DNA of 64,000 nucleotides from NCBI GenBank assembly GCA_021731025.1, contig JAKFYD010000007.1, positions 62,001 to 126,000 on the forward strand, given 5' to 3'. Under the pieces are notes generated by a model, which was not told the origin of the DNA, made no database searches, and was given only the letters and a program-made list of their open reading frames with translations. The translations under genes were made by a program, and so were the position numbers. Positions within the stretch are counted from its first letter, which is position 1. Each line of letters starts with the position of its first letter. Positions 27,598 through 64,000 of this stretch are shown one piece after another. This stretch comes from Pseudobdellovibrionaceae bacterium. GTDB taxonomy: Bacteria; Bdellovibrionota; Bdellovibrionia; Bdellovibrionales; Bdellovibrionaceae.

Positions 27598-28419
27598 ATG
27601 GAATTGCAGAAGTCTGAAAAAATTGAACGGCCGGTGTTGGCTAACTTTGATGATCCTATCGATTTTTTGCGGGCAATGGCTGATTACCTTAAGCAGATTG
27701 AGAAAGATTTTACGATTGTTAAAGGGACTCGGAACTTAAGAAAAGTTTCGCCGGCTTTAGTGACTTTGGTGCTGCAGAAAAAACGTCAGCTGACTTTGGA
27801 TCGCGTTGATGAATTTTCTAAGCTTTTTCGATTAACCGCCGCCGAAAAAAGTTATCTTCGCTTGTGGTTAGAAAAACGACTCAAACCGGAAGAGGGGATA
27901 GAAGCCAAACCGAATTTATCTAAAAGTAGAAAAGAAGTTTCAGCTCATATTCTTAAAGATTGGATCAATGTTTACGTTAAGGATTGCTTCCAAATCCCGG
28001 AAATCCAAGCTCAACCTGATCTTGTTTACCGACAACTTGCAAATTTAGCCCAGCCCCAAAGAATAGCTAAAGCCATTGATTTTCTACTTCGTGAAGGTCA
28101 TCTTCGAAAAACTTTAGAGGGTAAAATCGTTACGGAAACTCCACTCACGGTCACCGATCCGCAAATTTCTAATGACAAAGTTCGCAAATTTCACGCGGGA
28201 GCCTTGTCTTTAGCGAAAACGGCTTTGGAAAGCCATCCTGCTTCGGAACGCTATGCAAATACTTTTATTATGCCTTTGAATGAAGCTCAGTACCAAGAGC
28301 TCGTCCAGTTGATTCAGGAGTTCTCGGAAAAAATAAAAGACTTTGCAGCACAAACCGAGGGCCATCGTTTGTATCAGCTCATTGTCAATGTCAGCCCAAC
28401 CGGAGGGAAGTTCGTTTGA
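27598..28419 (+). CDS. TIGR02147/DUF4423 family regulator, locus 2
   Basis: This 273-residue intact member has an N-terminal region (DDPIDFLRAMADYLKQIEKD, then LRKVSPALVTLVLQKKRQLT) that fills the place of the family's helix-turn-helix part. The conserved C-terminal domain has LLREGHLRKT, KFHAGALSLAKTALESHPASERYAN, MPLNEAQYQELVQLIQEF and the final YQLIVNVSPTGG. Family members are predicted regulators with no defined ligand. The TGA stop overlaps the TTG start of the next gene (TTGA), so regulator and exported protein are made together. Confidence 0.85.
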   Translation: MELQKSEKIERPVLANFDDPIDFLRAMADYLKQIEKDFTIVKGTRNLRKVSPALVTLVLQKKRQLTLDRVDEFSKLFRLTAAEKSYLRLWLEKRLKPEEGIEAKPNLSKSRKEVSAHILKDWINVYVKDCFQIPEIQAQPDLVYRQLANLAQPQRIAKAIDFLLREGHLRKTLEGKIVTETPLTVTDPQISNDKVRKFHAGALSLAKTALESHPASERYANTFIMPLNEAQYQELVQLIQEFSEKIKDFAAQTEGHRLYQLIVNVSPTGGKFV

Positions 28420-29594
28420 AAAAATTGATTTTAATCTTTTTACTAGGATCCTTGCAGTCCAACGCATCAACCTTCGTGGGAAACGGCGGGCATGCGGGTG
28501 ATATTGAAGCACAGGTCGCTTTTAAAATCATTCAGGAGACTCTTCGTCAGATCCATGAAAACTCTTCGGCTGGTGATAAATTGTGTGTTTGCTTCCCTGA
28601 TTTAGAAGGACATTCCATTTGCGACACTCTGAAAAAATTAAATGAATCGCAGGGCAAATACTGCTCGCAACAGCTCCGGGAAAACGCTGCGGGTTTATTG
28701 TTAACGACTCAAAAAATTTCCAGTCAGGGATTTCTTTTTACTCGAGATCGAATTCAAGTCGAAAGTCGTAAATCCAAGTATCGCGATGCTGATGCCGTAG
28801 CCAACTTTCATCAGCAAACTCTGATCCTGAATCAAGATCGCTTTACGCAGATGCAAGATTACGAAAAGGTTTTTCTTTTGGTTCACGAGCTCGGTCATTT
28901 GCATTCCTGGAAAGGCGAATCCATTAAAGACGATCAATCTTTGGGGCCTTTCACAGGGGACGAGGGGGGGCGGCAATTTTTAAATTCCGTAGCCGCGGCT
29001 GTCACCATGCAAGCTCTGGAATACCGTACGTTTAACAACTATAAAGATATACTTGAGCGTTCCCAAGGACACAAAGTTCATTGGCTGGAGCTCTCGTCCA
29101 GAGGTACTGAAAACAAAAAGGTTCAATTAGGAGTCAATAAAACTACCGGCTCTTCTTTTTCTTACCGCTATCAGTTCAGCGAACCTTGGGGTGTTTCCTT
29201 TCATCTTGCGAACCAGAATGGTTCGCAAGGTCATTTGACCTCAACTACGGCGAAAGAATTTGTTTCAGCGCAAGGGGTTTTACTGAGCTATCGACTATTT
29301 CCATTTAAGGATCCACTCCGCTATTTTGGGCAATCCCACTTTATTTTTTCGGCAGGCCTGGAAGATTTAGGCGGCCGTTACGAAGTCACCGATACTTACA
29401 CTCCGGCAGAAGCGCGTGCGAATTCCCTTTCATGGAGTGTGGGAGCTAGCTATTACCTTCCGATCAAGTACAATTTCTGGGTGACCTTTAACTGGTCAAA
29501 GCAAGGCCATGACTATTCTTATAAAATTCCTTTTCGTTCGATCGATGTGAAGTCGGATTCCACTTTTAATTTGGGAGTTAGCTATGGATTTTAA
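28416..29594 (+). CDS. Exported HExxH peptidase-like protein with a C-terminal barrel
   Basis: This 392-residue protein has a short signal peptide (LKKLILIFLLGSLQSNAS) and a Gly-rich mature start (FVGNGGHAGD). A helical domain contains the zinc-type motif VHELGH near residue 154-158, with acidic residues after it (GPFTGDEGGRQF). Residues from about 215 to the end alternate in beta-strand pattern with aromatic girdles (SFSYRYQFSEPWGVSFHL, WVTFNWSKQGHDYSYKI) and end in SYGF, the terminal phenylalanine typical of Bam-inserted outer-membrane proteins. So it looks like a peptidase tethered to an outer-membrane barrel. The start is TTG, coupled to the regulator. Activity is inferred from the motif only. 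Confidence 0.7.
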   Translation: MKKLILIFLLGSLQSNASTFVGNGGHAGDIEAQVAFKIIQETLRQIHENSSAGDKLCVCFPDLEGHSICDTLKKLNESQGKYCSQQLRENAAGLLLTTQKISSQGFLFTRDRIQVESRKSKYRDADAVANFHQQTLILNQDRFTQMQDYEKVFLLVHELGHLHSWKGESIKDDQSLGPFTGDEGGRQFLNSVAAAVTMQALEYRTFNNYKDILERSQGHKVHWLELSSRGTENKKVQLGVNKTTGSSFSYRYQFSEPWGVSFHLANQNGSQGHLTSTTAKEFVSAQGVLLSYRLFPFKDPLRYFGQSHFIFSAGLEDLGGRYEVTDTYTPAEARANSLSWSVGASYYLPIKYNFWVTFNWSKQGHDYSYKIPFRSIDVKSDSTFNLGVSYGF

Positions 29595-57742: not shown

Positions 57743-59143
57743 TTACTTACTTATCGGGCGATCCAAAAACATGATTTCTGATGGCGGTAGCGTTTGTACT
57801 TGGTTAAAACGGCCAGACCACTGCAACAGGGCCCTTTCTGGCTGTCCCTGAAAAGGGGCGCCAAATCCAACTTCGAGTGCTGTATTTTTTTGCTCTGGAC
57901 CGATCGCTTTCAGTAACTGTCGTTGCCATGAAGTTCCATTGTCCCGGCTGGTGTACTCTACAATTTCGTAATAAGTCGGTCCAAAAGTTGTGATGTGAAT
58001 AACAATTTTTCCATCAGCAGCAACGTGCAGAGAGGTTTCGAAAGGATTTTCGTTGGAATTCACTCGTGTTGAAACCCATGTGGTTCCATTCCATTTCCAG
58101 AGTCTAAAGAGTACTGAGTCCAAAACTACAACAGTCCCATCCTTTAAAACACCAATTGTAGGATTTCCACCTTCATTTTCTTTATGAATTACGTACTTGT
58201 CATCATAGACAGGGTAAGGAAAAGTCGAATGCCAGTTCGGATCCAGAATAGTGGTTGATGTATTAAGACCTGTGGCAGCAGAAAATGATGCTGTACCGTT
58301 AATATTGGTCCACGTCTTGCCATTATCCGTGGATTTAATCAGGTATAATCTTCGGCCGGCTCCATTTCCATTGTAAGGTGACCAAACAAAATAAATTACT
58401 CCATTATGAATCAAGGTATCTTGAATTGCTCCTGGAAGGCCAAGCGCCCCACCATTTGTTCCTTTAATAAGATTGGTAGATGTCCATACGCCATCTGGTG
58501 TTCGTTTTGCGTGATTCAGATTTCCCATGAGATGGAGAGATCCATCTGTCGTGTAGCCTCCATTAATACAATTCATAGCAATGGGCACATTTTGCTCAGT
58601 CTCCCAAGATTCAATACTGTAAGGTTTGGTACTCACTTTATAAAATGGACCTGGGTTTTTAGTAAGTAAATAGGCCGATAGCGAGCCATAGAAAACTTCT
58701 ACAAAACCAGAGGGGCCGACATAAATACTTGGTGCATTGTGACCGTCATTGCCTGAAGCTGCAGCTACTGCAACAAGGCTTTTTGTCCATTTTCCATTGA
58801 TGTAATCATACATCATGGCATAGATATTATGAGATCTGTCAGCATTGTCATTTGCCATATAAGCAATAAATATTTTGCCATTAGCAATGACAGGGCCCGA
58901 ATGCTGAAATTCCGTTGCGCCTCCATACCACCCATCTTTTGCAAGAATTTGCAGTTGGAGATTTTCAATGATAGGAGAGGTCACTAGCAACACTTGTGGC
59001 GTGGAATCTAGCTCTAAACCTGAATTCAAATTGCTATCACTTTGAGGATCTGTTTTGGGTTTAAATTCACTGCAATTGGAATATCCTAAGATAAGAAAAA
59101 AACAAAACCCAGCAATTAGGGTCCAATAAGCAGCCTTTTTCAT
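57743..59143 (-). CDS. Lipoprotein with BNR/Asp-box sialidase-like propeller
   Basis: This 466-residue protein has a leader ending FLILGYSNC-SEF, an atypical lipobox like those at 4928 and 10929. Residues 60-460 form a propeller with Asp-boxes STDNGKTWTNI and SRDNGTSWQRQL and other W-rich repeats (SHNIYAMMYDYINGKWTKSL). This suits a six-bladed sialidase/BNR fold, but I cannot find the arginine triad needed to call a sialidase. It is probably surface-exposed and carbohydrate-binding. GGGGG lies upstream of the ATG. It is flanked by a pair of 31-bp direct repeats. Confidence 0.7.
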   Translation of the reverse strand: MKKAAYWTLIAGFCFFLILGYSNCSEFKPKTDPQSDSNLNSGLELDSTPQVLLVTSPIIENLQLQILAKDGWYGGATEFQHSGPVIANGKIFIAYMANDNADRSHNIYAMMYDYINGKWTKSLVAVAAASGNDGHNAPSIYVGPSGFVEVFYGSLSAYLLTKNPGPFYKVSTKPYSIESWETEQNVPIAMNCINGGYTTDGSLHLMGNLNHAKRTPDGVWTSTNLIKGTNGGALGLPGAIQDTLIHNGVIYFVWSPYNGNGAGRRLYLIKSTDNGKTWTNINGTASFSAATGLNTSTTILDPNWHSTFPYPVYDDKYVIHKENEGGNPTIGVLKDGTVVVLDSVLFRLWKWNGTTWVSTRVNSNENPFETSLHVAADGKIVIHITTFGPTYYEIVEYTSRDNGTSWQRQLLKAIGPEQKNTALEVGFGAPFQGQPERALLQWSGRFNQVQTLPPSEIMFLDRPISK

Positions 59144-62201: not shown

Positions 62202-63126
62202 TTACAGTTTTAAATCCTCACGAATCTGAGCGAGAGTCTTTCGAATAAACTCTGTCATCGTAGCATTTTTATTTGCATAATATTTTTCAGCTGCGTTGGG
62301 CGAAAAGCCCGCGAAAAATCCAAGTCTTGGACCATCAAAAACATAAGTGTATTTTAAGTTTCGGTAGCGATCGATTATGGTGACTTCATTGATTCCATTA
62401 TAAACAGAAAGAATGATCTTAATGCGAGTATTAGGGTCCGTCGACAGAAGCAAGGTACCGTCATCTAATAATGGTTTTAAAACCGACTGACTGGATCCTC
62501 CTGGATTGCTGGATTCTCCCCACTTAGGGTATTCAGGATAAATTTCCCCGAAAGCTACCAACCAAGGAATTTTTTTGGATTTTACGGATAAGAAATACCG
62601 ACTGAGTTCTTGAGAAACTGTCGCTGGATTATACTGAGTCAATATTGATGTGATATGTTCCACAGTTTGCTCATCCTGATTCATAGGCTCTGAAAGAGTT
62701 CTGTGAAGAGCTTCGTGAATCACCATCTGCACAAGTTGTGTTGGCGAGAGTGCATTGATGAGTTTAGGATAAATACGAGTGGGTGCTCCCGGATAAAGAT
62801 CAGTAGAAGCGACTAAAAATCCTCCAATTGGATAATCGCCAGGATTTCGATTTGGCGCTATAGCTTTATCATAAGGAACAAGAATGTATTTAGAAAACTG
62901 GATTTCGTTTTTTTAAAGATTTTAATTCAGGAAAATTTACGTCGGCCTGTAAGTTAAGTTGATCAATCAGAGTTATGGCTTGATTGACTGCTACCTGCAT
63001 ATTTTCCGATTGAGCTTTATAGTCTTGAAATCCTTCAAATGAAAGAAAAAGACCACCGCCCCCTTCGCGACCAGCGACGGACAAATTTGAGATAAATAAG
63101 AGTGAAATAAAAAAAATGTTTTTCAT
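62202..63126 (-). pseudogene. Exported HExxH peptidase-like gene, frameshifted, TIGR02147 locus 3
   Basis: The first frame (63126-62890) gives a signal peptide (MKNIFFISLLFISNLSVA) and a Gly-rich start (GREGGGGLFLSFEGF). The second frame (to 62202) continues without a gap in sense (FSKYILVPYDKAIAPNRNPG, PTQLVQMVIHEALHRTLSEP) with the zinc motif HEALH and a later glutamate (DEQTVEHI). Removing one A from a run of seven (T-run 62908-62914) joins them into 308 codons. It is therefore one gene with a single frameshift. The ATG overlaps the regulator's stop (ATGA), with GGAG upstream. The mature start resembles that of the locus 2 protein. Confidence 0.75.
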
Positions 63127-63923
63127 AACTTTTCTCCTGAATTACAGTTTGATATTGGATAAAGGGATATTGCTAAATTGTAGACTTCTAAAAGATTCGA
63201 ATCGTTTTCCAAAAACTGACACATTTCACGCCGAAATTCTTTTATCCGTTCGATCGCTTCTGGAAGTTTGTTGGGGTTAATGGGCATTGTCATCGAAGTG
63301 TGATTTCTAACTGATGGTGGCAATGTCTCGAGTGCCCACAAGGATTTTTCTAAAACCTGTTTCTGCAATTTTTTGTTGGCAGCACTTGTAATGCTACTGC
63401 CGGCAATATTAGTTGAGAATCCGCTCGATGAATCAATCCATTTCCCTTTTTTATCGACTTTGATCAATCCTACGCGAAGTAATCGCTCGACAGCGGCATT
63501 CGCTTCGCTCTTTGTTATACCGAGAGACTTTGTAAGCCATGCCAAATCATTTTTGAAATTCTTTACCTTCATAAGCTCTAAGATGGCATAATGATACCAG
63601 TCAGAAATGATAGCAAAGGTATCAAGAGTGATTTGCTCGAAGGCTAAACTTGATAACTGATTTTTGTTTATGTTATTTGTATACTGACTAAGCTCAGAAA
63701 GGTTTAACCCTAAGGCTAGACCTAAGCGCTCGATACTGGCTTTTGTAATTGCTCTTTTTCCATTAAGCATGTCGGATAAGGCCGAGGGGCCTATTCCTAA
63801 AGCCCTAGCAAAAGCACGCAATGAATATTTTGGATTTCGACGACAGCGCTCGATCAACTCTTGCTGAAGCAAAAGCCTAAAGTCTTTGAAGTGTTGTTTT
63901 AAATCAGAATTCACAGTGTGCAT
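63123..63923 (-). CDS. TIGR02147/DUF4423 family regulator, locus 3
   Basis: With the ATG at 63923 the protein is 266 residues, the family norm; an in-frame ATG at 63998, at the window edge, would add 25 atypical residues. The N-terminal helix-turn-helix-like region is clear: NPKYSLRAFARALGIGPSAL, then MLNGKRAITKASIERLGLAL. The family core follows (ISDWYHYAILELMKVKNF, AVERLLRVGLIKVDKKGKW) and the C-terminal VRNHTSMTMPINPNKLPEAIERIKEFRRE, described here by its key residues, leads to YNLAISLYPIS. It overlaps the downstream exported peptidase-like gene by four bases. Confidence 0.85.
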   Translation of the reverse strand: MHTVNSDLKQHFKDFRLLLQQELIERCRRNPKYSLRAFARALGIGPSALSDMLNGKRAITKASIERLGLALGLNLSELSQYTNNINKNQLSSLAFEQITLDTFAIISDWYHYAILELMKVKNFKNDLAWLTKSLGITKSEANAAVERLLRVGLIKVDKKGKWIDSSSGFSTNIAGSSITSAANKKLQKQVLEKSLWALETLPPSVRNHTSMTMPINPNKLPEAIERIKEFRREMCQFLENDSNLLEVYNLAISLYPISNCNSGEKL

Positions 63924-64000
63924 TTGGGAAAGCAATATATTAGTTTTTTTAGGTTCACAAACATCTTTGGAACAAAGTGTACCAATCAGCTGGTACATGG

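Follow-up and report, generated by a model that had tools for sequence, protein, structure and literature searches.

The window, i.e., the whole stretch of 64,000 nucleotides analysed here, carries on its minus strand an intact regulatory gene followed by two open frames that strongly appear to be the parts of a single broken gene, hereafter the partner (Table 1). The ATG of the partner overlaps the TGA of the regulator as ATGA (63126-63123), and the first frame runs from this codon at 63126 to a TAA at 62892-62890. The second frame, offset from the first by one base, is shut upstream by a TAA at 62915-62913, and the frame change is bounded by the stops of both frames to 62912-62893, an interval of 20 nt that contains five of the seven A's of a run at codons 71-73 of the partner gene. 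An ab initio frameshift scan of a 464-kb sample puts the frameshift at 62909. A T8 at the gene start was ruled out as the broken site, the frame being open through it.

Table 1. Features of the regulator-partner pair, in window coordinates
Feature	Position	Strand	Description
TIGR02147-family regulator (XRE-type HTH + DUF4423)	63123..63998	-	291 aa, intact, upstream member of the pair; TIGR02147 122 bits, E 3.1e-35, curated cut-off 50; DUF4423 E 9.2e-41, HTH_3 E 2e-8
First frame of the broken partner	62890..63126	-	78 aa; start resembling a signal peptide, Gly-rich motif; native for about 72 residues as far as the run, out of frame for about 6 more
Sense A7 run (T7 on the forward strand) at the frame change	62908..62914	-	read from the sequence; break bounded by stops
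Second frame of the broken partner	62202..62912	-	236 aa; HEALH (HExxH) and conserved downstream Glu; first start codon GTG 62732

The preliminary description had taken the two frames for a single protein joined at the T-run. The one-base offset at the run, the bounded break and the coding signal uphold that view, although the first half is without significant homology of its own. Indeed, the per-codon log-odds of the coding signal is 0.075 in the first half and 0.122 in the second, which places them at the 7th and 27th percentiles of 293 reference genes (mean 0.150, 5th percentile 0.070), the shifted frames of the same genes averaging -0.302. From the local frequency of out-of-frame stops, the chance of a 236-codon frame staying open is about 3.6e-7. 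A seven-row profile, made of six relatives and the window gene read through, matches the halves at positions 1-75 and 74-182, partly by construction, its first row being the window gene itself. When the window gene is left out, a profile of ten relatives matches the second half (E 2.2e-11) and does not find the first. Of 400 shuffles made, 242 were reported, and 95 of these reach the score of the first half alone (-2.0 bits), as do the N-termini of 99 among 469 other genes; hhalign gives a collinear match of residues 29-62 that is weak (E 0.0057 with a probability of 6%). Nevertheless, we strongly favour a single gene, by its arrangement and coding signal rather than by homology of the first half, because its start is coupled to the regulator and its signal-peptide-like and Gly-rich beginning is as in the relatives, because the length before the conserved region is similar and the second frame has no start codon before GTG 62732, and because the coding signal is continuous across both frames.

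The second half by itself finds relatives in 13 other genomes among the 143 searched, and these are read in a single frame, with a signal-peptide-like start, VGNGDDG or a similar motif, and an HExxH of the type HEALHR. When the genome contigs were scanned with the seven-row profile, 27 named loci emerged, all from metagenome-assembled genomes, mostly of Bdellovibrionales, Bacteriovoracaceae or Oligoflexia and some labelled just Deltaproteobacteria or Proteobacteria. Twenty-four of these, including the ten that built the relatives-only profile, are complete in one frame; two run off their contig (L074 and L080), and L078 stops early, without continuation in a second frame. Altogether, 53 strongly matching loci collapse to 30 distinct genes, the weaker matches L069-L071 being left out, and all 30 are read in one frame, begin at profile positions 1-16, end at 177-182 and carry an HExxH. 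Intact one-frame homologues of a gene that is split in the window, as expected for a frameshift pseudogene, are thus found in 30 of 30 cases. A scan of the genome_contigs collection with the second half alone produced 34 pattern matches and no relative. In G001, the sole other genome of the genus, which is 81% complete, no match to the gene was found, and a DNA search gave short matches to the region.

The relatives also bear on whether the full protein is still produced at a low level, through transcriptional slippage or ribosomal frameshifting at the A run, which we hold to be extremely unlikely. An A run is slippery in principle, and the coding signal is kept in both frames; but the relatives are read in one frame with no shift needed, no frame change was detected at hundreds of equally long A/T runs in coding DNA, and the case is a single instance, so that no conserved recoding signal can be sought. 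Programmed frameshifting as a trait of the family was rejected, as the relatives need none.

Regarding the product, the HExxH lies entirely within the second frame. In the alignment of the relatives, the residues H66, E67 and H70 of this HEALH are invariant, as is E81, a Glu placed 11 residues further. The gene resembles in this respect the zincins, a group of HExxH metallopeptidases, with which it shares the invariant H, E and H and the downstream Glu, but it differs from them in having neither a family model above cut-off nor a significant sequence match in the PDB. Indeed, Pfam and NCBIfam gave none above cut-off on either half; DUF6775, a probable metallopeptidase, reached 13 bits (E 0.073), below its gathering cut-off of 27; the best PADLOC match had an E of 0.055; and the best match of the relatives' profile to PDB sequences, with an E of 0.5, was not significant. 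The structure model of the second half is of low confidence (mean pLDDT 58), and a fold search with it found no match at E 0.001. The term peptidase-like, used in the preliminary description, seems apt for a gene with the HExxH and the conserved downstream Glu, though with no family model at cut-off, and the conservation of the motif suggests a putative metallopeptidase.

The coupling of the split gene to a TIGR02147 regulator, which had also been pointed out, is borne out by the ATGA overlap and by the score of the regulator. Moreover, the neighbour is kept: all 28 distinct relatives for which 900 nt or more are available upstream carry there, on the same strand, a regulator of this kind whose end lies between -11 and +92 nt of the matched start, while in the other two distinct relatives (L034 and L088) the upstream region is cut by the contig end. 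Among the weaker matches, L069 has a regulator upstream, L070 has none, and that of L071 is 440 nt from the matched part. In the own genome, 20 TIGR02147 matches correspond to 19 genes, two matches being the halves of a single one (locus 1, see below), and 11 of the 19 have an ORF close downstream. In five of them (L003, L004, L006, L007 and L012) this ORF starts at -4 to +9 nt and shows a hydrophobic start, a GNGG and an HE motif; the partners in the window and at locus 1 also start at -4 nt. In other genomes, 19 of 38 regulator loci, chosen as the best matches to the family or to the window regulator, have a downstream ORF at -17 to +11 nt with a hydrophobic start (two of the 19 being the same gene), the hydrophobicity index used for these starts being crude.

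The relatives further differ from the window gene at their C-terminus. The model of L083, an intact relative (mean pLDDT 77.9), presents helices around the HExxH and a strand-rich C-terminal part, a barrel whose best match is FapF (Foldseek E 6.8e-10). The likeness to outer-membrane beta-barrels of the FapF and autotransporter types thus belongs to that relative, the window gene being without such a C-terminal part. An action of the partner on its regulator by cleavage, considered by analogy with ImmA, was rejected, since partners begin with signal-peptide-like sequences.

A pair formed by a TIGR02147 regulator and an adjacent exported-looking, Gly-rich and often HE- or HExxH-containing protein was observed at window 63998-62202, at L022-L034, L055-L067 and L073-L099, and at L003, L004, L006, L007, L012 and L160-L169, with many copies per genome. 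Within the window, an intact module on the plus strand (27598-29594) pairs a TIGR02147 regulator with a partner of 392 aa that carries HELGH and matches an outer-membrane barrel weakly (27 bits vs 28.7). The TIGR02147 and DUF4423 models of NCBIfam and Pfam, above the cut-offs of which the upstream gene of the window lies, cover the regulator alone, whereas the coupled exported partner falls outside them. In the openly licensed full texts searched, neither a description of the module nor the term TIGR02147 was found; a protein table in one of these texts lists Bd3700 as DUF4423 domain-containing (PMC12546842). While a frameshifted accessory gene is by itself ordinary, the conserved module, of which predator-related bacteria have many diverged copies, constitutes the more interesting by-product of the analysis.

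The preliminary description went further and proposed a contingency expression of TIGR02147 modules, for which we found no positive support. In a sample of 464 kb, made up of the window and 20 other stretches (13% of the genome; 404 kb coding), there are 379 coding A/T runs of at least seven, i.e., 307 of length seven, 68 of length eight and 4 of length nine, so that 72 exceed seven and the density is 0.94 per kb. A run of at least seven is expected by chance in about 58% of the genes of this length. The density in partner genes (0.93 per kb, 8 runs in 8.6 kb) equals this baseline, and that in regulators is mildly above it, with 24 runs in 16.1 kb or 1.49 per kb (Poisson p 0.02). The split gene itself has three runs of at least seven, namely the T8 at its start, the A7 at the break and a later A7 (Poisson p 0.06). 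In comparison with ordinary runs the tract is neither longer nor enriched, and A7 runs are so frequent in this genome that such a run is no mark of a switch. As a separate observation on the same sample, sense-strand runs of A7 or longer in genes are above the codon-shuffled expectation (270 vs 172), and those of T8 or longer are depleted (5 vs 28).

Nor is the tract kept in the homologues: across the 18 codons around the junction in 13 relatives, the longest A-run is of 2 to 5 (A5 in L029), but of 6 in L034, and an A7 occurs in none of the 13, which are distant and thus provide a weak test of tract retention.

A precedent for the behaviour of such runs is the 5′ poly(A) tract of Listeria monocytogenes inlA, in which a change between A6 and A7 in a coding run throws the protein out of frame, as in the window gene (PMC2831843). 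The two cases differ in that both states of inlA are found in strains, the tract being polymorphic and its rates measured, whereas the window gene is known from one sequence, and in that the inlA tract lies near codon 8, far closer to the start than the run at codons 71-73. The same paper gives frequencies of about 5.5e-7 from A6 to A7 and of about 3.9e-8 from A7 to A6 in the inlA system, and states that most of the prokaryotic genomes it examined have an excess of A/T tracts of 3 to 7 (PMC2831843).

That the A7 run acts as a contingency tract, with slippage toggling the partner on and off in the population, is consistent with the variation of poly(A) tracts of 6-7 in inlA, with the predicted export of the product, and with the three split module genes of this genome, module genes being over-represented among the detected breaks in a post hoc comparison. 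Phase variation is thus possible, but we regard a contingency tract as improbable here, given the ordinary length and density of the runs in partner genes, the lack of an A7 near the junction in the 13 relatives, and the low frequency of the A7-to-A6 change in the inlA system. Furthermore, none of the four single-base indels that lay in genes and reached high frequency in evolving Bdellovibrio NC01 was in a homopolymer longer than two (PMC9888234). Finally, none of the 106 TIGR02147 regulators of four relatives, described below, is split over two matched frames.

The detection of breaks was weak. At a penalty of -16 the scan yielded 2 candidates, its recovery of simulated insertions being 73 of 288; a penalty of -12 combined with dear overlaps raised this to 202 of 287, at the cost of 57 calls, many of which resemble gene junctions and among which true frameshifts may hide. 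With cheap overlaps the same 4 candidates appeared at three settings, which recovered 37, 49 and 62 of 215 insertions (a sensitivity of 17-29%). One of the four (C16:45965) was dropped as false, lying inside a single 385-aa open frame, and 3 remain. From the 379 coding runs, one coincides with a detected frameshift, 9 others are near an inferred gene overlap and 37 near a coding edge.

Two further module genes are broken. The TIGR02147 regulator of locus 1 (window 10718-9941, minus strand) is split over two frames within 10276-10215. The preliminary description saw there an event similar to that of the partner; the split of the regulator stands, but the longest A/T run in the break interval is an A5. 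Its own partner, at 9944-9561, shows a weak NttA likeness (PF24275, 22.8 bits vs a cut-off of 27). At L007 (2280-2919; contig C21:58875-59514), a partner of the GNGG...HEWLWNYF type falls into two frames, the break being at five consecutive T's close to the C-terminus; this partner lies about 90-115 nt from the contig end.

Breaks are therefore present in 3 of the 11 modules that have a partner. In the sample, they were detected in 2 of 14 module genes vs 1 of 403 others (Fisher p 0.003, or 0.006 with the dropped candidate), a post hoc excess that rests on three events, on a locus picked for its break and on 14 genes counted by hand, and that is as compatible with relaxed selection on redundant paralogues as with switching. 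In the four relatives (G001, G006, G007 and G043), 0 of 106 TIGR02147 regulators, obtained by merging 128 matches by hand, is split over two matched frames; among them there are two short N-terminal pieces (G001:C6 and G043:C8), the remainder of which is maybe missing or sub-threshold, one gene with an in-frame gap and one at a contig end. The notion of break-prone modules is thus favoured by the third split gene and by the excess among detected breaks, but not by these regulators. The broader proposal, that TIGR02147 cassettes constitute a large undescribed set of regulators and coupled exported proteins in Bdellovibrionota, individual members of which would be silenced, and perhaps reactivated, when short A/T runs slip, is one to which we give very little credit; if true, the cells within a population would express differing sets of exported HExxH proteins.

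The main rival of a genuine mutation is an error of consensus or assembly in the homopolymer, the true gene being intact, which we judge unlikely, though it deserves serious consideration. The break lies at a homopolymer and the gene shows no other damage, all 30 distinct relatives are in one frame, and the other split partner, L007, is close to a contig end. The single frameshift detected among 379 coding runs of at least seven indicates that the assembly is not generally poor at homopolymers; nevertheless, given the sensitivity of the scan, a run-error rate of about 1% would be compatible with this count.

Altogether, we consider it fairly probable that the partner gene of a conserved two-gene module has been inactivated in the window by a frameshift, through a recent one-base slippage in an ordinary A7 run, the gene being one of a redundant group of exported proteins coupled to regulators. 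In the intact relatives, a TIGR02147-type regulator is followed directly by an exported protein that begins with a Gly-rich segment, contains an HExxH domain and in most cases terminates in an outer-membrane beta-barrel; the partner in the window genome is a short version devoid of the barrel. Slippage by one base in the run would have left the remainder of the gene out of frame, so that translation from the coupled start would end after 78 residues and the HExxH part would not be produced in exported form. As the preliminary description had it, the event is probably recent, because both frames are otherwise intact, with no further stop in either half and with the HEALH and the Glu retained. 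That the base change is real, that slippage was its cause and that the function was lost is what we infer from the sequence. Against this frameshift inactivation it must be considered that an assembly error would look the same, that the run may be polymorphic or phase-variable, that module genes are over-represented among the detected breaks in the post hoc count, a second partner (L007) also being split, and that no significant homology is found for the first half taken alone.

Two other genes of the region deserve mention. About 3 kb before the window, on the minus strand, a long fibre-like exported gene (L037, G000 C1:57400-58904) likewise changes frame, close to five consecutive T's. Within the window, a lipoprotein-like gene on the minus strand (57743-59143) presents weak matches to BNR (sialidase-type) repeats, just under the gathering cut-offs.
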